From Cupriavidus oxalaticus (GTDB taxonomy: Bacteria; Pseudomonadota; Gammaproteobacteria; Burkholderiales; Burkholderiaceae): 64,000 bases of DNA. Shown here in pieces: positions 23,659 through 45,832 of the stretch. Both the position numbers and the translations under genes were made by a program. Below the pieces are notes generated by a model that did not search any database, had not been told where the DNA came from, and worked only from the letters and a program-made list of their open reading frames with translations. The stretch spans positions 2,046,001 through 2,110,000 of the forward strand of contig NZ_CP038635.1 in assembly GCF_004768545.1 (NCBI RefSeq). The letters run 5' to 3'. Positions within the stretch are counted from its first letter, which is position 1. Each line of letters starts with the position of its first letter.

Positions 23659-24114
23659 TCAGCCCGATGCCCGGCTGACGAGCATGCACGTTGCCGTCGC
23701 GGTGGCGACCGCCCGGCCGTCCTGCAGCAGCTCCGCCGCAACGTAACAGACGTTCTTGCCGCGGCGCTCCAGCCTGGCGCGCCCGAGCAATTCGCCTGCT
23801 CTGGCCGGCCGCAGGAAGGAGAGGTTGAGGTTCAGCGTTGCACAGAATTCCTCAGCGCCCAGCGTAGCCGTCACCAGCATGGCAGTCACGTCGTCGAGCA
23901 TCGCTCCCAGCATGCCGCCCTGCACCTGGCCGGCCGGGTTCAGGAAAGCCGGCGTGGCCTGATAGGCGGATTCCAGCGTTCCCGCTTGCAGGTCGACCGC
24001 GCCGATATTGCCGCCAAGCAATGCGCAGATCGGCGGTGGCGGCACCTGCCCGCGCCGCATCCTGGCAAAGTAGTTGTCCGAGGCTTTTTCCAACGATGTC
24101 GACAACGATGTCAT
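23659..24114 (-). CDS. PaaI-family hotdog-fold thioesterase
   Basis: A 151-residue acyl-CoA thioesterase of the hotdog fold. The motif NPAGQVQGGMLGAMLDDVTAML holds the conserved Gly-Gly and the catalytic Asp. FLRPARAGELLGRARLERRGKNVCYV is the typical second half. It is the last gene of the long minus-strand catabolic operon (16 bases after the crotonase), where it could hydrolyse dead-end aryl-CoA thioesters and free CoA, as PaaI does in phenylacetate breakdown. Confidence 0.85.
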   Translation of the reverse strand: MTSLSTSLEKASDNYFARMRRGQVPPPPICALLGGNIGAVDLQAGTLESAYQATPAFLNPAGQVQGGMLGAMLDDVTAMLVTATLGAEEFCATLNLNLSFLRPARAGELLGRARLERRGKNVCYVAAELLQDGRAVATATATCMLVSRASG

Positions 24115-24130
24115 TCTCTATCCTCTCTTC

Positions 24131-24922
24131 TCAGCAGCCGCGAAAGCGCGGCGCGCGCTTTTCCAGCCAGGCCTGCGCGCCTTCGCGCAGGTCTGCGGAC
24201 GCATCGGCGCGCGCAATGTCGGCGGCAATCTCCGCCGGATCGAGCGTGCCGGCCGCGATCCGGTTCAGGTATCGCTTCATGCCAAGCAGGGCCAGCGGCG
24301 CCATGCCGGCCAGCTTTTCGCTCAACCCGGCGGCCTGCACCTGCAGCGCTTGCGCATCCGCCGCCACGCGGTCAAGGAAGCCGCATGCCAGCATCTGCGC
24401 CGCATCAAGCCTGTCGGCCGCCAGCAGCACGCGCTTGGCCGTGGCCAGGCCCAGCCGGGCCACGTAGCGCTCCAGCCCGCCGCGATAGAACAGCAGCCCC
24501 AGCCGCGCCGCCGGCACGAACATGTCGACGCCCTGCGCGCCCAGCCGGAAATCGCAGGCCAGCGCGAGGTCGGTAGCGCCCCCGTACAGGCCGCCCTGGA
24601 TCACCGCGATGGTGACGGGCCGTGCCGCTTCGAGCGCGTTGGCGAGGGCTTCGAAGCGCTCGCCGGCGTTGCTGCCACCGACCTTTCCGATATGGAAGCC
24701 GCTGCAGAAATGCTTGCCCTGCGCCTCGATCCGCAGCACCAGCACTTCGTCGCGGGCATTGATGGCGGCGATGTGCTCGCGCATCAGGTCGAGGTCTTCC
24801 GGCTCGAGGCGGTTCGCGACCTCGGGCCGGCGCAGCGTGATGACCGCCACCGCACCGTCGATGGCAAGCGCCGGCGGCTGCCCCGGCGCGGTCGCGCTGG
24901 CCTTACCGTCAGTGGAAGCCAT
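24131..24922 (-). CDS. Enoyl-CoA hydratase/isomerase family protein (crotonase)
   Basis: A 263-residue crotonase. Oxyanion-hole strands are KHFCSGFHIGK and VIQGGLYGGATDLALACDFRLG. At the two glutamate positions typical of enoyl-CoA hydratase there is no obvious Glu (GLYGGATDLA, RLGLLFYRGGLERY), so the reaction may be an isomerase, hydrolase or lyase rather than hydration. The ATG at 24922 overlaps the upstream RraA-like gene by 14 bases. It belongs to the minus arm of the catabolic supercluster. Confidence 0.82.
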   Translation of the reverse strand: MASTDGKASATAPGQPPALAIDGAVAVITLRRPEVANRLEPEDLDLMREHIAAINARDEVLVLRIEAQGKHFCSGFHIGKVGGSNAGERFEALANALEAARPVTIAVIQGGLYGGATDLALACDFRLGAQGVDMFVPAARLGLLFYRGGLERYVARLGLATAKRVLLAADRLDAAQMLACGFLDRVAADAQALQVQAAGLSEKLAGMAPLALLGMKRYLNRIAAGTLDPAEIAADIARADASADLREGAQAWLEKRAPRFRGC

Positions 24923-25577
24923 AGATCTGCATGGTCGATTCGCCCGCGCGCACGCGGCCGAGGATGGCGGCTTCGGCAGCTTCGCGCTGCTGCGCGCGCG
25001 CCACCACGTCGGCCGCGCTCCGCCGCGGCACGACCACCACGCCATCCGCGTCGCCCACGATCAGGTCGCCGGCTTCCACGCGGGTTTCGCCGAACAGCAC
25101 CGGCTCGTTGAGCCAGCCGATGGCGCCATAGTCCTTGCCGGTGCCGCGTATGCACAGCCCGCGCGCAAAGACGGGGAGGCCGATCTCGTCGAGCAGCACG
25201 CCGTCGCGCACGCAGCCGTCGATTACCAGTCCCGCCAGGCCCTTCACCTTGGCGGCAGTGGTCATGATCTCGCCCCAATAGCCGTGCTCGTAGGCGCCGC
25301 CGACATGGACCACCAGCACATCGCCGGGCCGGGCGGCTTCGATGGCGCGATGCAGCCACAGGTTGTCGCCACCGGGCGAATGCACGGTCAGCGCCGGGCC
25401 GCACAGGCGGAAGCGGGGCGCCACCGGCTTGATCACCGGCGGCAGCACGCCGATCTTGCCGCCTGCCTCGTGCAGCGTGGCGGTTGGCAGCGTCGCCGCG
25501 GCCACGACGACCTCCGCCGGCACGCGTTCGAAATCCGCACGCGTGGTGCTGGCTGCGTCATGTTCCTTCATGCTCAT
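24909..25577 (-). CDS. RraA/HMG-aldolase-family protein 1 (4-carboxy-4-hydroxy-2-oxoadipate aldolase-like)
   Basis: A 222-residue class II pyruvate aldolase of the HMG/CHA type. GGAYEHGYWGEIMTTAA and the substrate/metal motif VIDGCVRD match the catalytic core, and the overall pattern is close to LigK/ProA, which cleaves CHA to pyruvate and oxaloacetate in protocatechuate meta-cleavage. It is the first of three such genes in a row, overlapping the next by ATGA. Of the three it best fits the active aldolase. Metal is expected to be Mg or Mn. Confidence 0.82.
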   Translation of the reverse strand: MSMKEHDAASTTRADFERVPAEVVVAAATLPTATLHEAGGKIGVLPPVIKPVAPRFRLCGPALTVHSPGGDNLWLHRAIEAARPGDVLVVHVGGAYEHGYWGEIMTTAAKVKGLAGLVIDGCVRDGVLLDEIGLPVFARGLCIRGTGKDYGAIGWLNEPVLFGETRVEAGDLIVGDADGVVVVPRRSAADVVARAQQREAAEAAILGRVRAGESTMQIYGFH

Positions 25578-26236
25578 GCCCCTTTCGTCTGCAACTGGTG
25601 ATAGCGGAACTGGCGGCGCGCCTCGTCCAGGCGCATGCCGCCGCGCACGGCTTCGCGGATCGCGTTCTCGGCATGCTCGACGGCCTCGGCCGTGTCCAGC
25701 ACCGCCGCTTCATGCTCGCGCGGGATCACCACCACCCCATCGGCATCGCCGCGCACGATATCGCCGGGCTGCACGCGCGCATCACCGATATTGACGGGGA
25801 TATTGGTGGCTTCCACCTGCACGCGGTCCTTGCCGGTGCGCATCCAGTGGTCCTTGCTGAAGACCGGGTAGCCGAGCTGGCGGCACAGCGCCACGTCGCG
25901 GCACACGCCGTCGATCACGGTGCCGGCGATGCCGCGGCGGTGCGCGATCTCGGTCAGGATGTCGCCCCACACGGTGGCGTTGTCGCGCCCGCCGTTGTCG
26001 AGTACCAGCACGCTGCCCGGCGGCACGTCGTCGATGTAGTCGCCCACCGTGCCCGGCGGGTTGGAAGCCGGGCCGTACAGCAGCGTCCACGCGCGCCCCG
26101 CCATGGCAAAGCTGTCGCCGCGCGGCTTGATGCGGTAGCACTGCCCGGCGATGCCGAGCTTGTCGAGCGCGTCGCTCAGGGTGGCGGTATCGAGCCGCGC
26201 CGCGCGGCCCACGTTGATGTCCGTTGATTCGCTCAT
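25574..26236 (-). CDS. RraA/HMG-aldolase-family protein 2
   Basis: A 220-residue paralogue of the gene just downstream. The core motif is VIDGVCRDVALCRQLGYPVF, retaining the Arg-Asp pair, with LVLDNGGRDNATVWGDILTEIA before it. The residues around the active site differ from copy 1 (GGRDNATVWGD versus GGAYEHGYWGE), which suggests a different substrate. I prefer the ATG at 26236, nine bases after AAGGA, over the TTG at 26245 that overlaps the upstream stop. Stop overlaps the next start. Confidence 0.8.
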   Translation of the reverse strand: MSESTDINVGRAARLDTATLSDALDKLGIAGQCYRIKPRGDSFAMAGRAWTLLYGPASNPPGTVGDYIDDVPPGSVLVLDNGGRDNATVWGDILTEIAHRRGIAGTVIDGVCRDVALCRQLGYPVFSKDHWMRTGKDRVQVEATNIPVNIGDARVQPGDIVRGDADGVVVIPREHEAAVLDTAEAVEHAENAIREAVRGGMRLDEARRQFRYHQLQTKGA

Positions 26237-26241
26237 GGTCG

Positions 26242-26904
26242 TCAATCCTTCAGCATGTGTTCGTAGTTGCCGCCCATCACCTGCCCGATCGGCGTGCCGG
26301 CCAGGATGGCCTTCGACATGGCGGACTCCTTGAGGACGATGGCCTCGGCGGTGTCGAGCACGCGCTCGATATCGCCCGCCGCGATGAAGATCACCGCGCT
26401 GCGGTCGGCAAGCACGTAGTCGCCGCCGGCCACGGTCACGTCCGCGATCTCGACCGGCACGTTGGTGCCCTTCTCCACCACGCGGCCGCGTGCGGTGAAG
26501 GACGTCAGGCCCCGGCTGAACACCGGGAAATCAAAGGCGATGGCCTCGTCGATATCGCGCACGGGGCCATCGGCGACCACGCCGGCCACGCCGCGCACCT
26601 TGGCGCCCAGCGACAGCAGGCCGCCCCAGCTGCCGGCTTCGACGCCGCTGCGCTGCTCGACCACGATGATGTGGTCGGGGCCGGCCGCTTCGATGGCGGT
26701 GCAGCCCAGGTGCCGCACCGGCCCCGCCGGCGGCGCGCCGGTGCCGAGCTTGACGGTGATGGCGCGGCCGGCAATGCGGCCGGCGCCGCTGCGCTGCGGC
26801 AGGCCCGTGACCACGCCGGGCAGTTGCAGCTTGTCGAGCGCGTCCGAGACGGCGCAGCAATCGAGCCGGCGCAGGCGTTGTACGTAGGAATCAGGTTGCG
26901 TCAT
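26242..26904 (-). CDS. RraA/HMG-aldolase-family protein 3
   Basis: A 220-residue third member of the run. The core is VVADGPVRDIDEAIAFDFPVFSRG, again with Arg-Asp, and VVEQRSGVEAGSWGGLLSLGA before it; the acidic residue after the Trp in copies 1 and 2 (WGE/WGD) is Gly here (WGG), so metal or water binding may be changed. It may be an aldolase with altered specificity, an oxaloacetate decarboxylase or a non-catalytic partner. It follows the extradiol dioxygenase by 37 bases. Confidence 0.78.
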   Translation of the reverse strand: MTQPDSYVQRLRRLDCCAVSDALDKLQLPGVVTGLPQRSGAGRIAGRAITVKLGTGAPPAGPVRHLGCTAIEAAGPDHIIVVEQRSGVEAGSWGGLLSLGAKVRGVAGVVADGPVRDIDEAIAFDFPVFSRGLTSFTARGRVVEKGTNVPVEIADVTVAGGDYVLADRSAVIFIAAGDIERVLDTAEAIVLKESAMSKAILAGTPIGQVMGGNYEHMLKD

Positions 26905-26941: not shown

Positions 26942-27949
26942 TCAGCCCAGCGTGCGCCAGGCGGCGAAGCACAGGCCGGTGCCGGTCAGCGCGGGGGTGC
27001 GGTAGCCCGGCACGTAGCTGACCCATTCCAGGTCCAGCTCGCGCACCGCTTCCACGGCGATCAGCCAGTTGCGGATCTCTGAGCTGCCGGCCTGCAGCTG
27101 CTTCGGATCGAGCGAAGCCAGGAAGGCGGTGTCCTTGTTGCGGATGGCGGCGATGATGGCTTCGTCCAGCGTTTCGTCCACCACGAAGTGGCTCAGGCCG
27201 CCGGAGGCCAGCACGCCCACGCGCAGGTCTTCCGGGTAGCTGGCGATCAGCTCGCGCAGCGCGGTGCCGAGCTGGATGCAGCGCCGCGGCGTGGGCTGGT
27301 TGGGCGGATCGAAGGTGTTGACGATCACCGGCACGATCGGCACCACTGGCCGGTCAATGTCCTGCAGGTAGCGGCGGTGGATAAACGAGAAGGCATGGCC
27401 CTCGAACTGCCCGCGCTCCAGGCCGTCCATTGCGGTGATGTCGAAATCGCGGTCGCACAGCGCGCGGATCAGCCAGCGCGCCAGCGGCGCATGCACGGGG
27501 TAGTCGCGGTCGGCGTCGGGCTCTTGCCGCGCCATGCGGGCCTTCTTGTACCAGCCGTCGTTCGCGCCCACGTCGCGCCTGGCGTTGCGGATGGTGTCGC
27601 CGTAGTAGATCGCGAAGGCCGGGTTGTTGGTGGTGCGGAACAACTCGGTCTGGTCGTCGCCGACCACCAGCAGCACGTCCAGCCGGGCGGCGTGGATACG
27701 CTCGCGCAGCTCGTCCATGGCGGCCTCGGCGCGGTCGTAGCGCTCGCCCATGCGACCGGGCGTAACCATGGACTCGGCCTCGGCCGGCGCCGCGGCAAGC
27801 AGCTTCTCGTAGGTGGTGGGCTCGCCCGCGCGGTCGAAGTAATACGGGTTCTTGGGATCGACCTGCGGGAAGCCGTATTGCCAGTCCTCGCGCTGGGCGG
27901 CCAGCATGATGCTGTGTGAAGAGCCGAATGCGGCAACGATTTTTGCCAT
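26942..27949 (-). CDS. LigB-type class III extradiol ring-cleavage dioxygenase
   Basis: A 335-residue non-haem-iron dioxygenase of the LigB superfamily, without a separate LigA subunit gene. His12 in FGSSHSIM is the expected iron ligand, and SGGLSHFVVDE supplies a His and acidic residues further on. At the second ligand position of protocatechuate 4,5-dioxygenase (NDH/DDH) this protein reads GDDQ (Gln100). As I recall, this is a trait of the 3-O-methylgallate-dioxygenase subgroup (DesZ type), which also has a similar length, but I could not check. Substrate: a catechol, gallate or methylgallate-like ring. In one operon with the aldolases. Confidence 0.82.
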   Translation of the reverse strand: MAKIVAAFGSSHSIMLAAQREDWQYGFPQVDPKNPYYFDRAGEPTTYEKLLAAAPAEAESMVTPGRMGERYDRAEAAMDELRERIHAARLDVLLVVGDDQTELFRTTNNPAFAIYYGDTIRNARRDVGANDGWYKKARMARQEPDADRDYPVHAPLARWLIRALCDRDFDITAMDGLERGQFEGHAFSFIHRRYLQDIDRPVVPIVPVIVNTFDPPNQPTPRRCIQLGTALRELIASYPEDLRVGVLASGGLSHFVVDETLDEAIIAAIRNKDTAFLASLDPKQLQAGSSEIRNWLIAVEAVRELDLEWVSYVPGYRTPALTGTGLCFAAWRTLG

Positions 27950-27964: not shown

Positions 27965-29194
27965 TCAGACGATGAATGCCGCGCGCAGTTCGGCGATGCG
28001 CGCCGCGCTGTAGCCAAGCTCCGCGAGAATGGTGTCGGTGTCGCCGCCCTGTTCGGGCGCCATGCGCGGCGGCGCTTCGCGCGGATAGCGCGACAGGCGC
28101 ATGGGCTGGCCCACCAGCGAGACCTCGCCCAGTTCCGCATGCCGCATCGGCCATGCCATGCCCAGGTGGCGCACCTGCGCGTCGGCGAATACCTGGTCGA
28201 TGCCGTGGATCGGCCCGCACGGCACGCCGGCCTTGAGCAGGCGCTCGGTCCATTCCGCGGTGGTGCGCCCGCGCAGCGCGGCGGCGACTGCCGCATTGAC
28301 CTGGTCGCGGTTGCGCACGCGTTCCGGGTCCGAGCCCATGCCCGGCTCGTCGACGAGATGCGGCACGTCGAGTGCCTCGCACAGCCGCTTCCACATGGTC
28401 TGCCCGATCGCGGCGATATTGAGGTAGCCGTCCCGCGTGGCAAACACGCCGGTGGGCACGGTGAGCGGATGCTCGTTGCCGCTCTGCGCCGGCACCTTGC
28501 CGTCGATCAGCCATTGCGCGGCCTGGAAGTCCAGCATGGCGATCTGCGCTTCCAGCAGCGAGGTCTGCACCCACTGCCCCTGGCCCGACGCTTCGCGTTC
28601 GAGCAGCGCGGTCAGGATGCCCATGGCGCAGAAGTGGCCCGCGCACAGGTCGGCAATGGGAATGCCTACCCGCATCGGCCCTTCGCCCGGCTTGCCGGTC
28701 ACGCTCATCAGGCCGCCCATGCCCTGCGCGATGGAGTCAAAGCCCGGCCAGCCCGCATAGGGGCCGTCCTGGCCAAAGCCGGAGATGCTGGCGTAGACCA
28801 GGCGCGGATTGATCTCGCGCAGCGCATCGGGCCCGATGCCAAGGCGATGCTTCACGTCCGGCCGGTAGTTCTCGATGAAGACATCGGCGCGCCGGACCAG
28901 GTCATGCAGGATCGCCACGCCCTGCGGCGACTTCATGTTGAGCGTCAGGCTTTCCTTGTTGCGGTGCAGGTTCTCGTAGTCGGCACGGTTGTGGTCGCGC
29001 CCGCCGATCATGTCGTCGCCGCCGGGTGCGCCGGGCGGGATCTCCAGCTTGATCACGCGCGCGCCCATGTCGGCGAACAGCCGCACCGCGGTGGGGCCGG
29101 CCCGCACGCGCGAGGCGTCGATCACGGTGAAGCGCGACAAGGGGCCGTGGCGCTTCGGCTCCGCCTGCCGGGGATTGGTTGCGTTGTCTTCCAT
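27965..29194 (-). CDS. CaiB/BaiF-type (class III) CoA-transferase
   Basis: A 409-residue CoA-transferase. Markers are VIDASRVRAGPTAVRLFADMGARVIKLE, the NYRPDVKHRLGIG loop, and GIPIADLCAGHFCAMG with the conserved catalytic Asp. Such enzymes move CoA between acids without ATP, for example from succinyl-CoA to an aromatic or side-chain acid. GGGAGAG is 8 bases before the ATG at 29194; the upstream ATG at 29215 is less well placed. It may activate the substrate alternatively to the NDP-forming ligase. Confidence 0.88.
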   Translation of the reverse strand: MEDNATNPRQAEPKRHGPLSRFTVIDASRVRAGPTAVRLFADMGARVIKLEIPPGAPGGDDMIGGRDHNRADYENLHRNKESLTLNMKSPQGVAILHDLVRRADVFIENYRPDVKHRLGIGPDALREINPRLVYASISGFGQDGPYAGWPGFDSIAQGMGGLMSVTGKPGEGPMRVGIPIADLCAGHFCAMGILTALLEREASGQGQWVQTSLLEAQIAMLDFQAAQWLIDGKVPAQSGNEHPLTVPTGVFATRDGYLNIAAIGQTMWKRLCEALDVPHLVDEPGMGSDPERVRNRDQVNAAVAAALRGRTTAEWTERLLKAGVPCGPIHGIDQVFADAQVRHLGMAWPMRHAELGEVSLVGQPMRLSRYPREAPPRMAPEQGGDTDTILAELGYSAARIAELRAAFIV

Positions 29195-29211: not shown

Positions 29212-29619
29212 TCATGCGGGTGTGAACATTGGCACCGCGTGGCCGCCATCGCTCGCCCTGAACACCACCCGCACGCGCTGGCCGATGGCCAGCTCGCGCG
29301 GATCGCAGTCCACCAGGTTGCTCATCATGGTCACGCCCTCGTCGAGCTGGATGAAGGCCAGCGTGTAGGCCGCCTCGGCCCGCCCCATGGTGCTGTACGA
29401 ATAGACCGTGCCGTGGCCGCTGGCCTCGCGCCATTCGGTGCGCAGGGACTGGCAGTGCGGACAGACGTCGCGCGGGTAGTGATGCGCCTCGCCGCAGTCC
29501 AGGCAGAACTTGACCAGCAGGCGGCCCTGGTCGGCGGCCTCCCAGAAAGGAAGGCTCTCTGCCAGCGTGCGCGGCGCGGGGATCCTGCGCGCGGCGGTGT
29601 TGGTAGTCGTGGTGCTCAT
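29212..29619 (-). CDS. DUF35 Zn-ribbon/OB-fold protein, thiolase partner
   Basis: A 135-residue protein with a zinc ribbon (Cys-x-x-Cys in FCLDCGE and VCPHCQS, residues ~40-60) followed by an OB fold. DUF35 proteins bind SCPx-type thiolases and are needed for their activity. The thiolase gene ends 5 bases upstream, the usual arrangement, so a complex is probable. The ATG at 29619 is preferred to an in-frame start at 29670 that lies within the thiolase gene. Confidence 0.88.
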   Translation of the reverse strand: MSTTTTNTAARRIPAPRTLAESLPFWEAADQGRLLVKFCLDCGEAHHYPRDVCPHCQSLRTEWREASGHGTVYSYSTMGRAEAAYTLAFIQLDEGVTMMSNLVDCDPRELAIGQRVRVVFRASDGGHAVPMFTPA

Positions 29620-29623
29620 GGTT

Positions 29624-30787
29624 TCAAACCCTTTCCAGGATGAGCGTGGCCGCGGTGTGGCGCGAGGCAAGCGCGCCGCCGATGCCGCTGGCCAGCGCCA
29701 GGTCGCAGTTCTTGACCTGCACGGCGGGATGCGCTTCGCCGCGCAGCTGGCGGACGGCCTCGATCACCTTGGTAACGCCGCCGCGATTGGCCGGGTGGTT
29801 GTTGCACAGCCCGCCGCCGTCGGTGTTGAAAGGCAGCCTGCCCACGCCGGAGATCAGGCCGCCGTCGGCGACGAATTTGCCACCCTCGCCCTTCTTGCAG
29901 AAGCCGAGGTCTTCCAGCTGCATCAGCACGGTGATGGTGAAGCTGTCGTAGAGCGATGCGTACTTGATGTCGGCCGGCGTCACCCCGGCTTCGGCGAATG
30001 CCGCGGGGCCGGACCACGCGGCCGCGGACCAGGTCAGGTCGATCTTGCCGCCCATGGCGTGCTTGGGTGCCTCGCCAGCGCCCTTCACCTTGACCAGCGG
30101 GCGCTTGAGCTGCCTGGCGATCTCGGGACGCGCCACGATCAGCGCGCCGCCGCCGTCGCTCATCACGCAGCAGTCGAGCCGGTGCAGCGGATCCGAGACC
30201 ATGGGCGAATTCACCACGTCTTCCACCGTCACCACATTGCGCAGCATCGCGTGCGGGTTGTGCCGGGCATGGTGCGAGGCGGCAACCTTGATCCACGCCA
30301 GCTGCTCGCTGGTGGTGCCGAATTCGTGCATGTGGCGCCGGGCCACCAGGCCATACAGATTCTGCGTGGCCGGCCCGAACGGCAACTCGAAGGCCAGCTC
30401 CGGCGCGTCCGGGTCCGGCGCCTTGAGCGAGAGCGCCGCGCCCGCCGCGCGGGGGCGCCCGGCCAGCGTGATCAGCGCCACGTTGCAGCGCCCCGCGGCA
30501 ATCGCCTCGGCGGCGTGGGCCACGTGCAGGATCGGCGCCGAGCCGCCGCATTCGGTGGAATCGACGTGGCGCGGGCGCAGGCCGAGGTATTCGACGATGG
30601 TGGTGGTGCCGAGCCCCGGCGCATCGCCGGCGCAGAAGTAGCCGTCGATATCGCTCGCCGAGAGGCCGGCATCGGCCAGCGCCCCGAGGGCGACGTCGGC
30701 GTGCAGGCGGGCAACGGAAAGATCGTCGGCCTTGCGGGTGGGGTGCTCGTAGGCCCCCACGATGTATGCGGATCCGTTCAGAGTCAT
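29624..30787 (-). CDS. Thiolase-family protein (SCPx/lipid-transfer type)
   Basis: A 387-residue thiolase-fold protein for cleaving a 3-oxoacyl-CoA with CoA. It has the family's N-terminal ADALADAGLSASDIDG-like region, the Cys-containing STECGGSAP where the nucleophile lies, and the C-terminal NNHPANRGG (NxHP motif). The thiolase base Cys near the C-terminus is not in the usual GG-x-G-x-C form, which is typical of SCPx-like members acting on bulky substrates. With the DUF35 partner it suits side-chain beta-oxidation of an aryl- or ring-containing acid. Confidence 0.85.
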   Translation of the reverse strand: MTLNGSAYIVGAYEHPTRKADDLSVARLHADVALGALADAGLSASDIDGYFCAGDAPGLGTTTIVEYLGLRPRHVDSTECGGSAPILHVAHAAEAIAAGRCNVALITLAGRPRAAGAALSLKAPDPDAPELAFELPFGPATQNLYGLVARRHMHEFGTTSEQLAWIKVAASHHARHNPHAMLRNVVTVEDVVNSPMVSDPLHRLDCCVMSDGGGALIVARPEIARQLKRPLVKVKGAGEAPKHAMGGKIDLTWSAAAWSGPAAFAEAGVTPADIKYASLYDSFTITVLMQLEDLGFCKKGEGGKFVADGGLISGVGRLPFNTDGGGLCNNHPANRGGVTKVIEAVRQLRGEAHPAVQVKNCDLALASGIGGALASRHTAATLILERV

Positions 30788-30806: not shown

Positions 30807-31787
30807 TCACTGTTCGGGCTTGAAGCCGCTGGCCTTGATGACGGGGCCCCAGTAGGCCAGCTCTTTGCGCTGCAGGCGGTCCAGGTCCGCGGCGTCGCGG
30901 TAGTCCGGCTGCAGCACCGCCTTTTCTTCCAGCATGCTGCGCACGTCGGGCATGGCCAGCACCTTGCCGAGCGCCGTCTGCATGCGTTCGAGTTCGGCCT
31001 TGGGCGTCTTCGCCGGCGCCCAGACGCCGGTCCAGGCCTCGCCGGCATCTACCTTGACGCCCTGCTCGGCCACCGTGGGCACGTCGGGCAGCAACGGCGA
31101 GCGCCTGGCGCCGAACACGCCGATGATGCGCACCTTGCCGCCGCGCGTGTGCGGCAGGATGTCGCCGGCGGTCATCACCGCGGCGGCCAGCTGGCCGCCG
31201 ATCAGGTCTGTCGCCAGCGGCCCGTTGCCCTTGTACGGCACCACGTTCAGCGGCACGCCGGCTGCCTTGCCGAACTGCAGCCCGGTAAAGTGCGTCTGGC
31301 CGCCAAGGCCGGCGCTGCCGAACACGGTTTCCTTGGGATGCGCCTTGAGCCAGGCCACGTATTCCCTGACGTTGGTCACGCCGGTCTGGCTGCTCACCAC
31401 CAGCGCCAGCGGGTAGGAAATCACCACGGCGACGGGGCTCAGGTCGGTCAGCAGGTCGTACTTGAGCGTTGCCGGCGGATAGAGCAGCGTCGGGAAGATC
31501 GCGGTGGCATTCGGCGCGACCATATAGGTCAGCCCATCGGGCGCGCTGTGCTTGAGCATGCCGGTGGCGATGCGGCCGCCCGCGCCGGGCTTGTTGTCGA
31601 CGATCACCACCTGGCCGAGCACGCCTTGCAGCTTGTCTGCCAGCACGCGGGCGACGGTATCGGTGGAGCCGCCCGGCGGAAAGCCCACCAGCAGCCGGAT
31701 CGGCGGCTTTTCCTGGGCGTGGGCCGCGAGGCAGAAGCCCAGCGCCAGCGCGCAGCACACCGTCCTGAGGGTCTTGAAAATGGCCAT
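30807..31787 (-). CDS. Bug-family solute-binding protein of catabolic minus arm
   Basis: A 326-residue Bug protein with signal ending AHA|QEK. Blocks are PPIRLLVGFPPGGSTDTVAR, NKPGAGGRIATG, VVPYKGNGPLATDLIGGQ. It resembles the Bug protein at 40274 in many places (GLTYM-APNAT, GLGGQ-HF-G, KVRIIGVF-RRSPLLP versus KVRVIGIF-KRSPLAP, and GF-PE at the end), so the two are paralogues, one in each arm. The likely ligand is the pathway substrate. It lies between the ACAD and thiolase genes. Confidence 0.9.
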   Translation of the reverse strand: MAIFKTLRTVCCALALGFCLAAHAQEKPPIRLLVGFPPGGSTDTVARVLADKLQGVLGQVVIVDNKPGAGGRIATGMLKHSAPDGLTYMVAPNATAIFPTLLYPPATLKYDLLTDLSPVAVVISYPLALVVSSQTGVTNVREYVAWLKAHPKETVFGSAGLGGQTHFTGLQFGKAAGVPLNVVPYKGNGPLATDLIGGQLAAAVMTAGDILPHTRGGKVRIIGVFGARRSPLLPDVPTVAEQGVKVDAGEAWTGVWAPAKTPKAELERMQTALGKVLAMPDVRSMLEEKAVLQPDYRDAADLDRLQRKELAYWGPVIKASGFKPEQ

Positions 31788-32971: not shown

Positions 32972-34168
<1,197 letters not shown>

Positions 34169-36433: not shown

Positions 36434-36445
36434 CTGGCATACCAG
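36434..36445. promoter_or_regulatory. Candidate FCD-regulator operator, minus side
   Basis: CTGGCATACCAG, inverted repeat CTGG/CCAG around CATA, 93 bases before the CoA-ligase start. The core GCATACCA recurs at 36739-36746, and GTATACCA in front of the second FCD regulator. GntR/FCD operators often have the form TGGTATACCA. Confidence 0.6.
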
Positions 36446-36735: not shown

Positions 36736-36766
36736 TTTGCATACCACAAATCATGTGTTGTATATT
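36736..36766 (+). promoter_or_regulatory. Promoter and overlapping operator for the plus arm
   Basis: TTGCAT (36737-36742), 18-base spacer, TATATT (36761-36766) is a plausible sigma-70 promoter with the start codon 46 bases beyond. The -35 box lies inside TTTGCATACCACAAA, which contains the GCATACCA core, so repressor binding would block polymerase. Autoregulation by the FCD protein is inferred. Confidence 0.6.
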
Positions 36767-37982: not shown

Positions 37983-38987
37983 ATGATCATCGATTCCCAC
38001 GCCCACATCGTCATGCCCCCCGAAAGCTTCCGCTACATGGCGGAACTGGTCGGCGGCCGCGCCAACCCCTCGACCACGCCGCGCATCCCCGATGAATCGG
38101 TGCGCAAGGTCGCCGAGGAGCTGGTGCGCAGCATGGACAACGTCGGCACCGACGTGCAGTTCATCTCGCCACGCCCCTACCTGCAGATGCATTCGGTCAA
38201 GCCCGGCCGCGTCACGGAACTGTGGTCGCGCCACTGCAACGACCTGATCGCGCGCTTCGTCGAGCTGTTCCCCGACCGCTTCCGCGGCGTGGCGGGCCTG
38301 CCCCAGTACATGGACGAATCGCCGGCGCTGCGCGCGGTGCCCGAGCTGGAACGCTGCGTCAAGGAACTGGGCTTTGTCGGCTGCCTGATCAATCCGGATC
38401 CCACCGAAGGCGAAGGCCCGACCCCGCCGGGGCTGGGCGACCCGTTCTGGCATCCGCTTTACGACGCCATGACGCGACTGGACGTGCCGGGCCTGATCCA
38501 CTCCGCGGGCAGCTGCAGCGCGCGCGAGTCGTACACGCTGAAGTTCATCAACGAGGAAAGCATCGCCATCGTCTCGCTGCTGGGCGCCAAGGTGTTCGAC
38601 AAGTACCCGGACCTGAAGATCGTGGTGGCACACGGCGGCGGCGCGATTCCCTACCAGATGGGCCGCTTCCGCGCGTGGAACGTGCGCAAGGGCGAAGCCA
38701 CCAGTTTCGACGACCAGCTCAGGCACCTGTACTTCGACACCTGCAACTACTCGCGCGAGGCGATCGAGCTGCTGCTCAAGGTGGCCGGCACCGACAACGT
38801 GCTGTTTGGCACCGAGAAGCCCGGCACGGGTAGCGCGCGCGACCCGGTCTCGGGCCGCGACTTCGACGACATGAAGCCGGTGATCGAAAGCATCGACTGG
38901 CTGACCGAGGAACAGCGCCGCAATATCTTCGAGTGCAACTGCACCCGCCTCTACTCACGCGCCTTCCGCAAGGACGAGGAGTGCTGA
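37983..38987 (+). CDS. Amidohydrolase-family hydratase (LigJ-like 4-oxalomesaconate hydratase)
   Basis: A 334-residue TIM-barrel protein of the amidohydrolase_2 family. MIIDSHAHIVMPP gives the metal-binding His-x-His; the middle HSAGSC and the later VVAHGGGAIPYQMGRFR and FGTEKPG supply further His and acidic residues. The NPDPTEGE... FWHPLYDAM segments match LigJ, which hydrates 4-oxalomesaconate to CHA; other members are decarboxylases (ACMSD). With the LigB-type oxygenase and RraA aldolase present, LigJ-like hydration is the favoured role. It begins 5 bases after the Rid gene stop. Confidence 0.82.
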   Translation: MIIDSHAHIVMPPESFRYMAELVGGRANPSTTPRIPDESVRKVAEELVRSMDNVGTDVQFISPRPYLQMHSVKPGRVTELWSRHCNDLIARFVELFPDRFRGVAGLPQYMDESPALRAVPELERCVKELGFVGCLINPDPTEGEGPTPPGLGDPFWHPLYDAMTRLDVPGLIHSAGSCSARESYTLKFINEESIAIVSLLGAKVFDKYPDLKIVVAHGGGAIPYQMGRFRAWNVRKGEATSFDDQLRHLYFDTCNYSREAIELLLKVAGTDNVLFGTEKPGTGSARDPVSGRDFDDMKPVIESIDWLTEEQRRNIFECNCTRLYSRAFRKDEEC

Positions 38988-38988: not shown

Positions 38989-40227
38989 ATGGCAATGACC
39001 CGCGAAGACAACGACCTGCTCACCCGCGTCGAGGGCGGCGCGCCGATGGGCGAGATGATCCGCCAGCACTACTGGCTGCCGGCGGTGCCGTCGGCCAAGC
39101 TGGTGGCAGACGGCGCGCCGGTGCGCGTGCGCCTGCTGGGCAGCAACTATGCGGCCTTCCGCGCCACCGACGGCAGCGTGGGCGTGGTCGACGAATTGTG
39201 CCCGCACCGCAAGACCTCGTTGCTGATGGGCCGCAACGAAGACAACGGCCTGCGCTGCATCTTCCACGGCTGGAAGCTCAACACCCGCGGCGAGGTAGTG
39301 GAGGCGCCCAACCACACCGGCGAGCAGGCGCAGTTCTGCAAGCACGTGCGCGTCAACCGCTATGCGGTGGAGGAGCGCGGCGGCATCGTCTGGGTGTGGC
39401 TGGGCAAGGGCGAGCAAGCGCCGAAGTTCCCCGACCTGCCATTTACCACCCTGCCGGAAGACCAGCGCTCGGTCACCAGCCAGGAAGTGCCGACCAACTG
39501 GGTCCAAGGCGTGGAAGCCTCGATGGATTCTTCGCATGTCGGCGTGCTGCACGAGTCCACCACGCAGATCACCGCCGGCTCCGGCAACGAGCGCCTGCAC
39601 ATGACGCAGGCCCTGGCGCCGCGGCTGGAATTCGAGGACCGGCCCTACGGCTACCGTTATGCGGCCATCCGCCCCCTGGCCGACGACAAGGTCTATGCCC
39701 GCGTCAACAACTTCGTGATGCCGTGGTACGGGATCATCTGCGCCCCCGACGCGAAGGGTCCCGGCACGGTGTTCTTCTCGACGCCTGTCGACGACGTCAC
39801 GCACCGCGCCTGGTTCGTCCACTTCAATCCGCACCGGCCGCTGGGCATGACGGTGATGTCGGCCACGCCGGACGTGTGGGACTTCCCGCCGCTGCCGCCG
39901 GGCGGCCCCGACAACAACTGGGGACAGAACCGCGACCTGATGCGGCGCGGCCACGCCACCGGCTTCCCGCAGCACCTGGGGACCGAAGACTTCGCCATGT
40001 TCCTGGGCCAGGGCCCGATCGCCGACCGCACCACCGAACAGTTGTGCTCGGCCGACGGCGCCGTGCTGCGCGTGCGCCAGGCGCTGCTGAAGTCCGTGCG
40101 CGAGTTCATGGCCGGCAAGACCCCCACGCTGGCGGACAGCCCCGAGCTCGACTACGCGCAAGCGGTATCGGTGGGCGGCGTGCTGCCCGCCGGCACGGAC
40201 TGGCGCGTGCTGACCCAGGCGGGCTGA
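38989..40227 (+). CDS. Rieske non-haem-iron oxygenase, large subunit (phthalate 4,5-dioxygenase class)
   Basis: A 412-residue oxygenase component. The Rieske [2Fe-2S] ligands are Cys71, His73, Cys90 and His93 (CPHR ... CIFHGW). The mononuclear iron is held by Asp180-x-x-His183-x4-His188 (DSSHVGVLHE) and a later Asp in GTEDFAMF. This class includes phthalate dioxygenase and O-demethylases such as LigXa, so the ring could be dihydroxylated or demethylated. No small (beta) subunit is encoded, as usual for this class. One base separates it from the hydratase stop. The reductase gene lies beyond the Bug gene. Confidence 0.9.
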   Translation: MAMTREDNDLLTRVEGGAPMGEMIRQHYWLPAVPSAKLVADGAPVRVRLLGSNYAAFRATDGSVGVVDELCPHRKTSLLMGRNEDNGLRCIFHGWKLNTRGEVVEAPNHTGEQAQFCKHVRVNRYAVEERGGIVWVWLGKGEQAPKFPDLPFTTLPEDQRSVTSQEVPTNWVQGVEASMDSSHVGVLHESTTQITAGSGNERLHMTQALAPRLEFEDRPYGYRYAAIRPLADDKVYARVNNFVMPWYGIICAPDAKGPGTVFFSTPVDDVTHRAWFVHFNPHRPLGMTVMSATPDVWDFPPLPPGGPDNNWGQNRDLMRRGHATGFPQHLGTEDFAMFLGQGPIADRTTEQLCSADGAVLRVRQALLKSVREFMAGKTPTLADSPELDYAQAVSVGGVLPAGTDWRVLTQAG

Positions 40228-40273: not shown

Positions 40274-41314
40274 ATGACAAGCATGTGCCGACGCCGGCTG
40301 TTGCTGGCGGCCTGTGCCGCCATCGCCGCCCCAGCCGCCCCAGCCGCCCCAGCCGCCCCAGCCGCCCCAGCCGCCCCAGCCGCCCCAGCCGCCCCCGCGG
40401 CGGCGCATGCCGGCATGCAGGGCAGACCCGTGATCCGTATTCTGCTCGGGCTGCCGCCCGGCGGCGGCACCGACGCGATCGCCCGCTACTTCGCCGACCG
40501 GCTGCCCGCGCTGCTGGACCAGCCCGTCATCATCGAAAGCCATGTCGGCGTGGGCGGCCGCATCGCGGCCGATATGCTGATGGCGGCCAGGCCCGACGGC
40601 CTGACCTACATGATCGCCCCCAACGCGACGCCGACCTTCCAGACCCTGGTGTTCGGCAAGCAGCTCAAGTGGGACCTGTGGCGCGACTTCGCGCCGGTGG
40701 CCGGGCTGGTGTCATACCCGCTGGGCATGGCCGTGCGCCCGGATACCGGCAAGAACGCGCAGGAGTTCATCCGCTGGGCCAAAAGCCATCCAGCCGAGGC
40801 CTTCGGCACGCCCGGGCTGGGCGGGCAGAACCACTTCCTCGGCATGCAGTTCGCGCGGGCGGCCGGCATCACGCTGACCGCGGCGCCCTACAAGGGTACC
40901 CCGCCGATGATCACCGACCTGGTGGGCGGCCATGTGCCCGCGGCCGTCACGCTGCTGGACGACATGATGAAGTACCACCGCAGCGGCAAGGTCCGCGTGA
41001 TCGGCATCTTCAGCCCGAAGCGCTCGCCGCTGGCGCCCGAGATCCCGACCATGGCCGAGCAAGGCGTGAACATGCCGTTCGCCGAAGGCTGGACCGCGAT
41101 GTGGGCGCCCGCCCGGACCCCGCCGGCCGAACTTGAGCGCATGCAGCAAGCCCTGCGCAAGATCCTGTCCGCACCCGGGACCGCGACGTTCCTGATGCAG
41201 CGCCTGTCGGTCGTGCCCGACTACCTCAACGCCGCGGACATGGCCCGCCGGCAGCGCGCCGAACTGGCGACGTGGGAACCCATCATCAGGTCGTCCGGGT
41301 TCAGCCCGGAATGA
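40274..41314 (+). CDS. Bug-family solute-binding protein of plus arm, with repetitive signal region
   Basis: A 346-residue Bug protein. The N-terminus MTSMCRRRLLLAACAAIAAP leads into an APA repeat encoded by a 9-base microsatellite (residues ~18-41), ending with AAHAG; mature domain starts near GRPVIRILLGLPPGGGTDA. Other blocks are ESHVGVGGRIAADML and KGTPPMITDLVGGH. LLAAC at residue 10-14 could be a lipobox, so the protein may be a lipoprotein with a long linker. It is a paralogue of the Bug protein at 30807. It sits between oxygenase and reductase genes. Confidence 0.88.
   Translation: MTSMCRRRLLLAACAAIAAPAAPAAPAAPAAPAAPAAPAAPAAAHAGMQGRPVIRILLGLPPGGGTDAIARYFADRLPALLDQPVIIESHVGVGGRIAADMLMAARPDGLTYMIAPNATPTFQTLVFGKQLKWDLWRDFAPVAGLVSYPLGMAVRPDTGKNAQEFIRWAKSHPAEAFGTPGLGGQNHFLGMQFARAAGITLTAAPYKGTPPMITDLVGGHVPAAVTLLDDMMKYHRSGKVRVIGIFSPKRSPLAPEIPTMAEQGVNMPFAEGWTAMWAPARTPPAELERMQQALRKILSAPGTATFLMQRLSVVPDYLNAADMARRQRAELATWEPIIRSSGFSPE
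40325..40396 (+). repeat. Nine-base tandem repeat encoding Ala-Pro repeats
   Basis: Seven perfect copies of GCCGCCCCA (40325-40387) and an eighth with one change (40388-40396) lie in the signal/linker part of the Bug gene. Because the unit is three codons, slippage changes the length of the linker without a frameshift. Confidence 0.95.
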
Positions 41315-41348: not shown

Positions 41349-42317
41349 ATGAGCAATTCCGAAACACTGCAGGTGAGGGTCAAGTCCATGGCCTGGGAGG
41401 CCGACGGCATCCTGAGCTACGAGCTGTGGCCCGAGCCGCCGCGCAAGGCGCTGCCGCCGTTCTCGGCCGGCTCCCATGTCGACGTGCACCTGCCCAATGG
41501 CCTGATCCGCAACTACTCGCTGCTCAACGCGCCGCACGAGCGGCACCGCTACGTGATCGGCGTGAACAAGGACCCGAACAGCCGCGGCGGCTCGCGCTAC
41601 CTGCACGAGGTGCTGCGCCCCGGCGATACGCTGGCGATCAGCGCCCCACGCAACAACTTCCCGCTCGAGGAGTCGGCCGCGCTGAGTGTGTTTATCGCGG
41701 GCGGCATCGGCATTACGCCGATCCTCGGCATGATCCGCCGCCTGCAGGCGCTCGGCCGGCACTGGCAGCTGCACTACGCAGCGCGCACGCGCCGCAATGC
41801 CGGCTTCCTCGACGCCGTGCAGGCGCTGCGCGATGACGCCAACGCCGAAGTGCAGCTGTGCTTCGACCGCGAGCCCGGCGGGCGCATGCTGGATATCGCC
41901 GGCATCGTCCGTGCGCTGCCGGCCAGCGCCCATGTCTATTGCTGCGGCCCGCTGCCGATGCTGGAAGCGTTCGAGCAGGCCACTACCGGCCTGCCGCCCG
42001 CGCAGGTCCACCGCGAGTACTTCGCGGCGCGCGAGAGCGCCGCCACCGAGGGCGGCTTCACCGTCGAGCTGGCCCGCAGCGGCCGCAGCGTCGAAGTGCA
42101 GGCGGGCCAGACCATCCTGGACTGCCTGCTCGGTCAGGGCATCGAGCCGCCGTATTCGTGCCAGGAGGGCATCTGCGGCACCTGCGAGGTGCGCGTGCTC
42201 GACGGCGTGCCGGACCATCGCGACCTGGTGCTCAGCGAGGCGGACAAGACCGCGAACCAACGCATGATGATCTGCTGCTCCGGCGCCAGGAGCCGCAAGC
42301 TGGTGCTGGACCTGTGA
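41349..42317 (+). CDS. Phthalate-dioxygenase-type reductase (FMN/NAD/[2Fe-2S])
   Basis: A 322-residue one-protein electron carrier: FMN-binding domain (residues ~1-105, RNYSLLNAPHER), NAD-binding domain (FIAGGIGITPILGMIRRL, YCCGPLPML), and C-terminal plant-type ferredoxin with Cys ligands in SCQEGICGTCE and MICCSG. It passes electrons from NADH to the Rieske oxygenase at 38989, the only partner in the window. VanB- and PDR-like relatives serve O-demethylases and dioxygenases. The Bug gene between oxygenase and reductase is unusual. Length is typical. Confidence 0.92.
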   Translation: MSNSETLQVRVKSMAWEADGILSYELWPEPPRKALPPFSAGSHVDVHLPNGLIRNYSLLNAPHERHRYVIGVNKDPNSRGGSRYLHEVLRPGDTLAISAPRNNFPLEESAALSVFIAGGIGITPILGMIRRLQALGRHWQLHYAARTRRNAGFLDAVQALRDDANAEVQLCFDREPGGRMLDIAGIVRALPASAHVYCCGPLPMLEAFEQATTGLPPAQVHREYFAARESAATEGGFTVELARSGRSVEVQAGQTILDCLLGQGIEPPYSCQEGICGTCEVRVLDGVPDHRDLVLSEADKTANQRMMICCSGARSRKLVLDL

Positions 42318-42384: not shown

Positions 42385-43191
42385 ATGAGCACTGAACTGG
42401 TTACCTATGAACTCGACGGGCCGGTCGCGCTGATCGGCCTCAACCGCCCCGACAAGCGCAACGCCATCAATGAAGACGTGGTGTGGGCGCTGCGCGATGC
42501 CGTGGTGCGCGCCGGCGAAGAAGCCAGCGTCGGCGTGCTGTTTGGCCATGGCAGCAACTTCTGCGCGGGCCTGGACCTGAAGGAAGCGCTGGCGCGCGCG
42601 GCCGGCGCCCTCGCCAACGCCCCGCGGCCACGCAAGCGCCAGCGGCATTCCTGGCACACCGTGTTCGACATCATCGCGCGCGGTCCCATTCCGTTCGTGG
42701 CCGCACTGCATGGCGCGGTGGTCGGCGGCGGGCTGGAGCTGGCCACCGCGGCGCACGTGCGCGTGGCGGATGAATCCGCCTTCTTCGGCCTGCCCGAAGG
42801 CCAGCGCGGCATCTTTGTCGGCGGCGGCGGAACGGTGCGCGTGCAGCGCGTGGTGGGCTACACCGTGATGGCCGACATGATGCTGACCGGCCGCCTGCTG
42901 TCGGCGGCCGAGGGCGAGCGCGAGCACATCGTGCGCTACGTTGTGCCGGCCGGGCAGGCGCTGGACAAGGCGCGCGAGCTGGCCGCCAGGATCGCCCGCA
43001 ATACGCCCGACACCAACTGGCGCATCACCAATGTGCTGCCGCGCATCAACGACCTGTCGCATGACGACGGCCTGTTCATGGAGTACCTGAACTCGAACAT
43101 GGAGCGTTCCCCCGAAACCGCCGAGCGGCTGCGCGAATTCGTCGAAGGGCGGGCCCAGCCGCTGGTCTCCCCGGCAGGCAAACAGGACTGA
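42385..43191 (+). CDS. Enoyl-CoA hydratase/isomerase family protein (crotonase), plus arm
   Basis: A 268-residue crotonase. Oxyanion-hole strands are SNFCAGLDLKEAL and ALHGAVVGGGLELATAAHVRVA; ESAFFGLPEGQRGIFVGGGGTVRV includes a Glu at the catalytic region, GLELA offers the other, so a hydratase function is supported. Four bases upstream of the 3-hydroxyacyl-CoA dehydrogenase gene, with which it would make a two-step module of side-chain beta-oxidation. The spacer of 67 bases from the reductase includes no terminator. Confidence 0.87.
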   Translation: MSTELVTYELDGPVALIGLNRPDKRNAINEDVVWALRDAVVRAGEEASVGVLFGHGSNFCAGLDLKEALARAAGALANAPRPRKRQRHSWHTVFDIIARGPIPFVAALHGAVVGGGLELATAAHVRVADESAFFGLPEGQRGIFVGGGGTVRVQRVVGYTVMADMMLTGRLLSAAEGEREHIVRYVVPAGQALDKARELAARIARNTPDTNWRITNVLPRINDLSHDDGLFMEYLNSNMERSPETAERLREFVEGRAQPLVSPAGKQD

Positions 43192-43195
43192 GGCC

Positions 43196-44566
<1,371 letters not shown>

Positions 44567-44764
44567 GTTTTCCACCCCTCGCCACCCCGACACCGTCCGA
44601 TGCGTCCGATGGATTGCAGCCCTGCCTGGGCTGCGCCTCGGGCGCGGGTCCGTGCCGCCGGAAAACGCCGTTTCCGGCCATTTTTTCATGCCGTTGATGC
44701 AATGGCACCCCGGTGCAGCGGCGGGATCAGCCGCGCAATCCGTTCATCCTGGAGGAGAAAAGCA

Positions 44765-45832
44765 ATGAAAAAAAGCACCATCGGCATCGCGTGCGCCCTG
44801 GCCGGCCTGGCCGGCACGGCGCAAGCTTCGGTCACGCTGTACGGCGTGGTCGATGCCAACATCGAGTACAGCAACAACAACCTCGCGACGGGGCAGCCGG
44901 ACGGCAAGTCAAAGGTAGCGCTCAGCTCAGGCGGCCTGTCGCCGAGCCGCTGGGGCCTGCGCGGGGTGGAAGACCTGGGCGGCGGCAAGCAGGCGATCTA
45001 CGCGCTGGAAAGCGGCTTCAGCGTCGACACCGGCATTTCCACGCAGGGCGGCCGGCTGTTCGGGCGCCAGGCCTGGGTCGGACTCGCGGCCGGCGGGCAC
45101 AAGCTGACCTTCGGCCGGCAATACTCGTCGCTGTTCCTGACCATGGCCAACTACTCGCCCACCGCGTATGCGACCCTGTACGAACCGGTGACCACCATCG
45201 CCGGCGCCGGGCTGCGCCAGGACAATATGGCGAAGTACCACGGCGACTTCGGCCCGCTGTCCACGGAACTGCACTGGAGTTTTGGCGAGCAGCCGGGCTC
45301 GATGACGGGATCCGCGGGCTACGGTGCCGGCGTGGACTACCGCATCGGATCGTTCGGCATTGCGGCGGCCTATGACAATGTGAACAGCGCGAAGGTGGCG
45401 GGCGACTACCAGCGGACGCAGAAAGCAGCACTGGGCCTGCGCTACCAGGTCACGCCGCAGTTGCTGGCCCAGGCCGCGTACCGCTACGGCAAGAACGATG
45501 TCGCGACGCCCGGCGCCATCGGGCGCGACGACCTCTGGTGGTTCGCCCTCAATTTCCAGGCCACTCCGGCGCTGCAGCTGACCGGCGCGGTCTACTACGA
45601 CAACCTCAGGTCGGTCTATGGCGCCGCGGGCGATCCGGCCAACCCGTGGCAGGTCACGATGATCGCCGACTACAGCTTGTCCAAGCGCACCGACGTCTAC
45701 CTCAGCGCAGCCTTCACCAAGAACGCGGCGCTCAACTTCGAGAACTTCAACGGGGCCACGGCGGCCTACCGGATCGCGCCCAGCGAGGACAGCCAGTTCG
45801 GCGTCGCCGCCGGCATACGGCACCGCTTCTGA
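44765..45832 (+). CDS. Gram-negative porin (OmpC-like, Burkholderiales type)
   Basis: A 355-residue trimeric outer-membrane porin. Signal peptide ends AQA|SVTLYGVVD, the mature start typical of Burkholderiaceae porins. Strands and the L3 constriction loop follow (SRWGLRGVEDLGGGKQAIYALESGF, RLFGRQAWVGL), with the closing FGVAAGIRHRF ending on the obligatory Phe. It is 198 bases beyond the 3-hydroxyacyl-CoA dehydrogenase and GGAGGAG precedes the ATG. Being in the supercluster, it may favour the aromatic substrate. Confidence 0.92.
   Translation: MKKSTIGIACALAGLAGTAQASVTLYGVVDANIEYSNNNLATGQPDGKSKVALSSGGLSPSRWGLRGVEDLGGGKQAIYALESGFSVDTGISTQGGRLFGRQAWVGLAAGGHKLTFGRQYSSLFLTMANYSPTAYATLYEPVTTIAGAGLRQDNMAKYHGDFGPLSTELHWSFGEQPGSMTGSAGYGAGVDYRIGSFGIAAAYDNVNSAKVAGDYQRTQKAALGLRYQVTPQLLAQAAYRYGKNDVATPGAIGRDDLWWFALNFQATPALQLTGAVYYDNLRSVYGAAGDPANPWQVTMIADYSLSKRTDVYLSAAFTKNAALNFENFNGATAAYRIAPSEDSQFGVAAGIRHRF

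Follow-up and report, generated by a model that had tools for sequence, protein, structure and literature searches.

The window analysed here, 64,000 nucleotides of the Cupriavidus oxalaticus contig NZ_CP038635.1 (positions 2,046,001 to 2,110,000), carries a gene cluster of two divergent arms with 22 genes in total, spanning 23659-45832. Its gene content, the linkage of the arms, the promoter sites, the clade placements of two ring-cleavage enzymes and the missing cysteine of a thiolase-fold protein were observed directly, and the clustering of the genes is far beyond chance. We tentatively favour the reading that the cluster encodes a complete pathway in which a methoxylated phenylpropanoid acid would first lose its side chain and would then proceed to meta-cleavage of a 3-substituted 4,5-dihydroxybenzoate. 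A preliminary description of this DNA had proposed one self-contained aromatic-acid route. This proposal agrees with the co-occurrence of the arms in three proteobacterial classes, with the promoter sites that they share, and with a single-row version of the cluster in Halomonas.

Gene content, linkage and shared promoter

Gene families were assigned by matches to Pfam and NCBIfam profiles, which confirmed the enzyme parts that the preliminary description had named. Its two divergent arms are also found, but the genes number 22 rather than about 20; the RidA gene (37576-37977) had been overlooked, and the RraA genes are three in tandem. Read outward from the promoter, the left arm encodes an ADP-forming ligase, two acyl-CoA dehydrogenases, a Bug protein, the thiolase-fold protein, a ChsH2-type OB protein, a CaiB transferase, a LigB-type dioxygenase, three RraA proteins, a crotonase, and a thioesterase. 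The right arm encodes, in order, a GntR regulator, RidA, an amidohydrolase, a Rieske oxygenase, a second Bug protein, a reductase, a crotonase, a 3-hydroxyacyl-CoA dehydrogenase (HAD), and a porin. The features are as follows.

23659-24114, minus strand: 4HBT hotdog thioesterase (Pfam PF03061)
24131-24922, minus strand: crotonase ECHa (Pfam PF00378; start chosen)
24909-25577, minus strand: RraA-fold aldolase c, 4-carboxy-4-hydroxy-2-oxoadipate (CHA) aldolase-like (NF006731, 181.8 bits, cut-off 179; PF03737)
25574-26245, minus strand: RraA-fold protein b (PF03737; D-X20-RD present)
26242-26904, minus strand: RraA-fold protein a (PF03737; Gly at the D position)
26942-27949, minus strand: LigB-family extradiol dioxygenase of a third clade beside LigZ and DesZ (PF02900; tree)
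27965-29194, minus strand: class III (CaiB) CoA-transferase (PF02515; start chosen)
29212-29619, minus strand: ChsH2/DUF35-type zinc-ribbon OB protein (PF01796, PF12172; start chosen)
29624-30787, minus strand: thiolase-fold protein without nucleophilic Cys (NF006010 (PRK08142), 729.6 bits, cut-off 462)
30807-31787, minus strand: Bug (TctC) solute-binding protein 1 (PF03401)
31830-32957, minus strand: acyl-CoA dehydrogenase, PimD-like subunit (TIGR03203, 337.3 bits, below the cut-off of 652.7)
32972-34168, minus strand: acyl-CoA dehydrogenase, PimC-like subunit (TIGR03204, 398.9 bits, below the cut-off of 623.85)
34179-36341, minus strand: ADP-forming acyl-CoA ligase, FerA-like (domain matches; 44% to the gene at the inferred ferA position; start chosen)
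36432-36447, no strand: operator-like palindrome before the left arm (promoter comparison)
36736-36750, no strand: operator-like site before the GntR gene (promoter comparison)
36812-37564, plus strand: GntR/FCD regulator (PF00392 and PF07729 on the longer reading frame from 36737; ATG at 36812 preferred)
37576-37977, plus strand: RidA-family protein (PF01042)
37983-38987, plus strand: amidohydrolase, LigY side (268.6 bits to LigY versus 231.9 to LigJ; tree)
38989-40227, plus strand: Rieske oxygenase, LigXa_C family (PF00355, PF19301; motifs)
40274-41314, plus strand: Bug (TctC) solute-binding protein 2 (PF03401)
41349-42317, plus strand: oxygenase reductase with C-terminal 2Fe-2S domain (PF00175, PF00111)
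42385-43191, plus strand: crotonase ECHb (PF00378; NF006013, 369.1 bits, cut-off 232)
43196-44566, plus strand: 3-hydroxyacyl-CoA dehydrogenase (PF02737, PF00725)
44600-45832, plus strand: porin (PF13609)
45853-46809, minus strand: second GntR/FCD regulator, probable right border (family match; conserved position)

A LigB alignment was used to scan one genome per species; 266 stretches were confirmed and the best 80 analysed. The search for the same gene order that the preliminary description had suggested found eleven left-arm genes with order and strand kept in 48 of these 80 loci, and a seven-gene core in 57. Loci that miss the gene rows are partly short contigs and partly true absences; in 13 of the loci (L093-L105), with a more distant LigB of 53-60% identity, the dioxygenase is not accompanied by the CoA genes. 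Both sides were fetched for 22 genomes, and in every one of them the two arms adjoin. Nine of these are from Cupriavidus, and the other thirteen include Azohydromonas, Burkholderia sp. lig30, Paraburkholderia, Variovorax, Polaromonas, Limnohabitans, Ramlibacter, Caldimonas, Acidocella, and two Halomonas. Because the genomes were picked for having the left arm, this count tells that the right arm accompanies it, not how frequent the cluster is. The linkage extends across Beta-, Alpha- and Gammaproteobacteria, and a Rieske orthologue (66-86%) was present in 16/16 named genomes queried. Within the genus the distribution is patchy, with a dioxygenase of at least 84% identity in 14 of 59 other same-genus genomes. 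The host genome has 7.97 Mb; its nearest relative, judged by the cluster, is Cupriavidus sp. amp6 (dioxygenase 97%). C. necator UYPR2.512 and C. pinatubonensis HN-2 are further strains with the cluster.

In Halomonas, the genes form a single row: Rieske, ligase, two acyl-CoA dehydrogenases, short-chain dehydrogenase/reductase (SDR), thiolase fold, OB, CaiB, LigB, three RraA, and crotonase. The SDR gene follows the dehydrogenases and precedes the thiolase-fold gene (L178/L179, L184/L185), in the place of the HAD, for which neither of the two Halomonas copies examined gave a match. A crotonase match of 46% was found only far away, in one of the two copies. RidA adjoins the LigY-like gene in 49 of 80 loci having such a gene; no RidA was found beside it in the Acidocella copy. 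A MarR gene adjoins the LigY-like gene in one Halomonas locus (L178).

The divergent promoter contains two operator-like sites, TTCTGGCATACCAGAA at 36432-36447 and TTTGCATACCACAAA at 36736-36750. At least one such site, by a loose pattern, is present in 50 of 51 distinct homologous promoters, a set that includes the window's own (L064 has none), compared to 4 of 200 mononucleotide-shuffled promoters; the homologous promoters are related by descent and thus not independent. Both occurrences of the core TKGCATACCA in the window lie in the divergent promoter. The pattern TNTGGCATACCANA has one match in the whole genome, which is at this promoter, but the reversed pattern also matches once, so that a single match in 8 Mb is about what chance would give, and its significance lies in its position alone. 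Of the second site, the genome has one exact copy, the one described here, and one copy with two mismatches on another contig. It is likely, judging from the predicted operator sites, that one local GntR regulon covers both arms.

Enzymes of ring cleavage

In a 47-row tree, with long branches flagged, the window dioxygenase belongs to a separate 27-row clade, distinct from LigZ and DesZ (support 100/99), which rules it out as a direct orthologue of either; LigAB and DesB are far outgroups. The genome G619, which has a 100% LigY match and is presumably that of SYK-6, was used for comparison. There, the dioxygenase scores 208.5 bits (40%) with the desZ candidate, 194.9 bits (38%) with LigZ, and at most 36.4 bits with the other four matches.

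The amidohydrolases are separated in a 49-row tree by a 100/100 split into a LigJ clade (13 rows) and a LigY side (36 rows), and the window protein groups with the latter. Two rows pre-assigned to the LigJ outgroup did not disturb the split, but L102 and L104 grouped with LigJ, so that no branch separates the pre-named outgroup from all other rows. The window protein is part of a 22-row clade (99/96) that is sister to a set with LigY and the desZ-adjacent paralogue. By this placement it is a LigY-side protein and no LigY orthologue, and it is probably a hydrolase. The LigJ-like hydratase of the preliminary description is thus replaced by a LigY-side enzyme.

The metal/catalytic motif of RraA-fold aldolases for 4-hydroxy-4-methyl-2-oxoglutarate (HMG) or CHA is D-X20-RD. 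It is complete in protein b, the D position is Glu in c and Gly in a, and RD is found in all three. The RD motif with Arg-123 has been described for an RraA-fold aldolase (PMC5065237, available part).

Two loci of G619 are related to the ring genes of the window. The first has the order LigZ, RraA, RraA, LigY; a Rieske gene of the LigXa_C type follows at a distance of a few kb, and the tags SLG_07720, 07750 and 07770 agree with this order (PMC12997858, Table 1). This dehydrodivanillate locus (ligZ, two RraA, ligY, ligXa) resembles the window in dioxygenase family, in two adjacent RraA genes (56%, 73%), in the LigY-side hydrolase (41-43%) and in the nearby LigXa_C Rieske gene. It differs in that the window dioxygenase belongs to another clade (36-38%), the Rieske protein is just 28% identical, and the window has a third RraA and RidA. 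No two-subunit dehydrogenase, HAD or CaiB was found in the 20-kb SYK-6-like stretch around it. The second locus, matched to desZ (SLG_19030) by tag spacing and not by label, comprises a LigY paralogue, a LigB-family gene (37-40%), three RraA genes (72%, 73%, 61%) and, a few kb farther on, a Rieske gene (34-36%); in the tree, its LigB-family enzyme and the window dioxygenase fall in different clades. In the 16-kb desZ stretch, as placed by this spacing, CoA-dependent side-chain genes of the window type had no match.

Forms of the ring module are also encoded on plasmids of Rhodococcus, Bradyrhizobium, Aminobacter and Polymorphobacter, beside other peripheral genes, and pNL1 carries the module without the dioxygenase in similar company. 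The relatives of the ring enzymes use benzoates substituted beside the diol, the substituent being methoxy for DesZ and aryl for LigZ (PMC12997858). DesZ acts on 3-O-methylgallate and gallate, according to the available part of PMC8091115.

Side-chain enzymes and the Rieske oxygenase

The sequence does not support an ordinary thiolase, which the preliminary description had listed. The position of the nucleophilic Cys is occupied by GGS in 69/69 distinct sequences from the window and the loci (after removal of duplicate rows, rows interrupted by stops and rows shorter than about 300 residues). Among solved chains, 7yvy has Cys at this position while 4u4e and 6ok1 have none. C80 of the window protein was rejected as an alternative nucleophile: L091, L071 and L081 have Thr or Ser instead, and it lies two columns off the Cys of 7yvy.

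The protein and its OB partner are, by sequence features, most like the Ltp2-ChsH2 pair, which we take to be a steroid side-chain aldolase with 6ok1 presumably representing Ltp2. Both lack the Cys, share LYDxFT (LYDSFT in the window), and have an adjoining ChsH2-type OB gene and an adjacent two-subunit acyl-CoA dehydrogenase. The window protein, however, retains the NHP histidine that 6ok1 is without, and the cluster has a HAD. In the C-terminal loop, in which we assume the second catalytic Tyr of the Ltp2-ChsH2 aldolase to reside, NNHP of the window stands where 6ok1 has GE---AY, and the alignment is gapped there.

The dehydrogenase pair resembles PimC and PimD, both matches being below the profile cut-off, and the solved chains closest to the larger subunit are 4x28 and 6wy9, for both of which we presume a steroid role. 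The ligase has the domains of the FerA type (CoA binding, Succ_CoA_lig, ATP-grasp) and shares 44% identity with the gene that occupies the presumed place of ferA and 48-50% with two paralogues.

Three genomic contexts favour phenylpropanoid acids as substrates of such enzymes. Firstly, G619 carries, about 2.3 kb upstream of ligZ, an operon of ligase, crotonase, thiolase fold and OB (L151, 24-4532). Its thiolase-fold protein is also without the Cys, and no HAD match was found in the operon. Secondly, ligase, crotonase, HAD, thiolase fold, OB and LigB are in one row in L091. Thirdly, a paralogous set stands beside the cluster in L071 (5487-13383) and L081 (11061-20996), consisting of a MarR regulator, one large acyl-CoA dehydrogenase, HAD, a thiolase-fold protein (68-69%), and an AMP-forming ligase, to which L081 adds a crotonase and a Rieske gene (49%). 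The AMP-ligase of L081 belongs to the PRK12582 subfamily (764.1 bits versus a cut-off of 777), which we take to be of the feruloyl-CoA synthetase type.

The Rieske protein has the CXH...CXXH cluster motif and the D..H..H iron motif (motifs at 71 and 180), the LigXa_C domain (PF19301), and a partner reductase (41349-42317). The LigXa_C family as searched also includes phthalate dioxygenases, and the solved chain closest to the protein is named phthalate 4,5-dioxygenase. With just 28% identity to the LigXa gene, compared to 34-36% to the Rieske gene near desZ, the protein is not the LigXa orthologue that a SYK-6-type dehydrodivanillate pathway would have beside LigZ/LigY. Among the family hits of the 22 genes there is none to any of the usual dihydrodiol-dehydrogenase families, which makes a demethylase or hydroxylase role likelier. 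In L108, L110, L116, L118, L120, L154, L173, L176, L177, L180, L181 and L182, the second Bug gene is followed by another Rieske gene, 27-30% identical to the first, which the window lacks.

Proposed pathway and its alternatives

We infer the substrate, the order of steps, and every catalytic role from the genes and their contexts. The substrate would be a ring-methoxylated 4-hydroxyphenylpropanoid acid, most likely either of the syringyl type (dihydrosinapate- or sinapate-like) or another guaiacyl acid substituted at position 5. This retains the syringyl-type part of the ferulate, sinapate or syringate-like substrate suggested in the preliminary description, but ferulate itself appears weaker because LigZ and DesZ act on 3-substituted dihydroxybenzoates. 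The local GntR regulator would control both arms through the two sites of the divergent promoter. The acid may be taken up by the porin and the Bug proteins and converted to its CoA ester by the ADP-forming ligase. A saturated side chain would be oxidised by the two-subunit acyl-CoA dehydrogenase, crotonase and HAD and then cut by the Cys-less thiolase-fold/OB lyase. The CoA-transferase and, where present, the thioesterase may recover the CoA and free the benzoate, which the Rieske oxygenase with its reductase would O-demethylate to a 3-substituted 4,5-dihydroxybenzoate. After ring cleavage by the LigB-type enzyme, the product would be processed by RidA, acting as a tautomerase, and the LigY-side hydrolase, and the RraA aldolases would finally yield acids at the level of pyruvate and oxaloacetate.

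That this is one pathway is suggested by linkage and gene order in three proteobacterial classes and by the conserved operator-like sites in the shared promoter, which are rare in the genome. Its course is suggested by the match of the ring genes to the LigZ-LigY and DesZ loci of SYK-6, by the clade placements, by the L091 row and by the L071/L081 set with its PRK12582 AMP-ligase.

Several observations weigh against this proposal. The Cys-less thiolase-fold protein fits poorly with a preceding HAD, and a retro-aldol reaction leaves the HAD, or the SDR of Halomonas, unaccounted for. The thioesterase is missing from many copies outside Cupriavidus and Paraburkholderia. The dioxygenase clade is distinct from DesZ and LigZ, so the ring substrate may differ from theirs. 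In another Cupriavidus (G037), a separate operon (L021, 2-3836) encodes a reductase (61%), a LigY-like protein (46%), RraA a and b (75% each) and a dioxygenase that joins DesZ in the tree (100/95); from this placement it is likely to be a 3-O-methylgallate operon. Automatic JGI labels on relatives point partly away from the proposed course, naming the amidohydrolase as 4-oxalmesaconate hydratase and some of the dioxygenases as 3-O-methylgallate 3,4-dioxygenase. Finally, distant homologues stand alone for the ring module (L126-L130, L100) and for the side-chain module (L071 and L081, the latter with a Rieske gene), and the pathway thus looks like a fusion of two older modules.

The order of events might be the reverse, a serious rival that we nevertheless regard as less likely. 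The Rieske enzyme, the LigB enzyme and the LigY-side hydrolase would then act on a C-C linked aromatic, a 5-5' biaryl or diarylethane-type lignin fragment as for LigXa/LigZ/LigY in SYK-6, and release a saturated R-COOH, for example an arylpropionate, for the CoA-dependent arm. Such a product would explain why the dehydrogenase pair has been retained, and the LigY-side amidohydrolase, the same LigZ-RraA-RraA-LigY neighbours in SYK-6 and the ligase-crotonase operon a few kb from ligZ are in accord with it. However, the ring genes are as close or closer to the DesZ locus, the Rieske protein is remote from LigXa, and the CoA genes of L091 lie upstream of LigB.

The same architecture could serve a substrate without methoxy groups, with the Rieske enzyme hydroxylating it or removing a carboxyl, halogen, sulfonate or aryl ether. 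The similarity to a chain named phthalate 4,5-dioxygenase would suit this, as would ring modules on plasmids beside P450, FAD or two-component Rieske enzymes, and RidA relatives can presumably act on nitrogen-bearing intermediates. We nevertheless consider it unlikely, given that the cluster has no recognised dihydrodiol dehydrogenase and that the substrates of the closest ring enzymes of named role are benzoates with methoxy or aryl substituents (PMC12997858).

Conversion of ferulate-type acids to protocatechuate or gallate, followed by a LigJ hydratase and a LigK-type aldolase, is improbable. RraA c passes the CHA-aldolase model by a small amount (181.8 bits versus 179) and the JGI labels agree, but the amidohydrolase tree excludes the LigJ clade, and with it a LigJ-LigK protocatechuate-type lower pathway, and LigAB and DesB are far outgroups. 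Two unrelated pathways abutting by chance are very improbable indeed: the separate clusters that the preliminary description had allowed for exist as distant homologues of each half, but the arms themselves are together in 22/22 genomes, form a single row in Halomonas and share promoter sites.

The fde/ifc flavonoid clusters likewise perform ring cleavage of plant aromatics in Betaproteobacteria, but the ifc cluster, in the available part of its description, has a monooxygenase of the FAD type and a dioxygenase of the glyoxalase type, which resemble FdeE and FdeC (PMC11069340); as far as this part goes, the differing enzyme classes rule out identity with our cluster. A description of the gene set was not found in the papers searched, which covered few subscription journals and in part only sections of the text. 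Within this literature, the enzyme families are known, whereas their combination, the third dioxygenase clade, and a Cys-less lyase in such a setting are undescribed.

It is conceivable, if doubtful, that the cluster stands for a new and widespread CoA-dependent lignin-fragment pathway, in which a Cys-less thiolase-fold/OB lyase completes a steroid-like side-chain shortening and the new-clade dioxygenase, LigY-side hydrolase, RidA and three RraA proteins then dismantle a 3-substituted dihydroxybenzoate. If true, lignin fragments that are of the syringyl type or C-C linked would have a CoA-dependent route of degradation outside the sphingomonads. The genera that bear the cluster include Cupriavidus, Paraburkholderia, Variovorax, Limnohabitans, Acidocella and Halomonas, and the complete, linked gene set would offer a testable route for the use of such carbon by common soil and freshwater bacteria. 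It would also supply a marker set for metagenomes and, with the Cys-less lyase and the third dioxygenase clade, enzymes for lignin conversion.

The second GntR gene (45853-46809) closes the right end in eight of the nine Cupriavidus copies fetched on both sides. Left of the cluster (21515-23276) are an isochorismatase-family gene and a DJ-1/AraC (GlxA-like) regulator; they were rejected as members, being beside the cluster only in the closest relative (L026; second fetch L106). Two genes of the mandelate-racemase/muconate-lactonising type and an SDR gene to the right (47505-50888) were also rejected, having no match beside the fetched copies except weak SDR matches of 25-35%. A tandem pair of tRNA-Leu(CAG) genes is located at 6278-6583 of the window.

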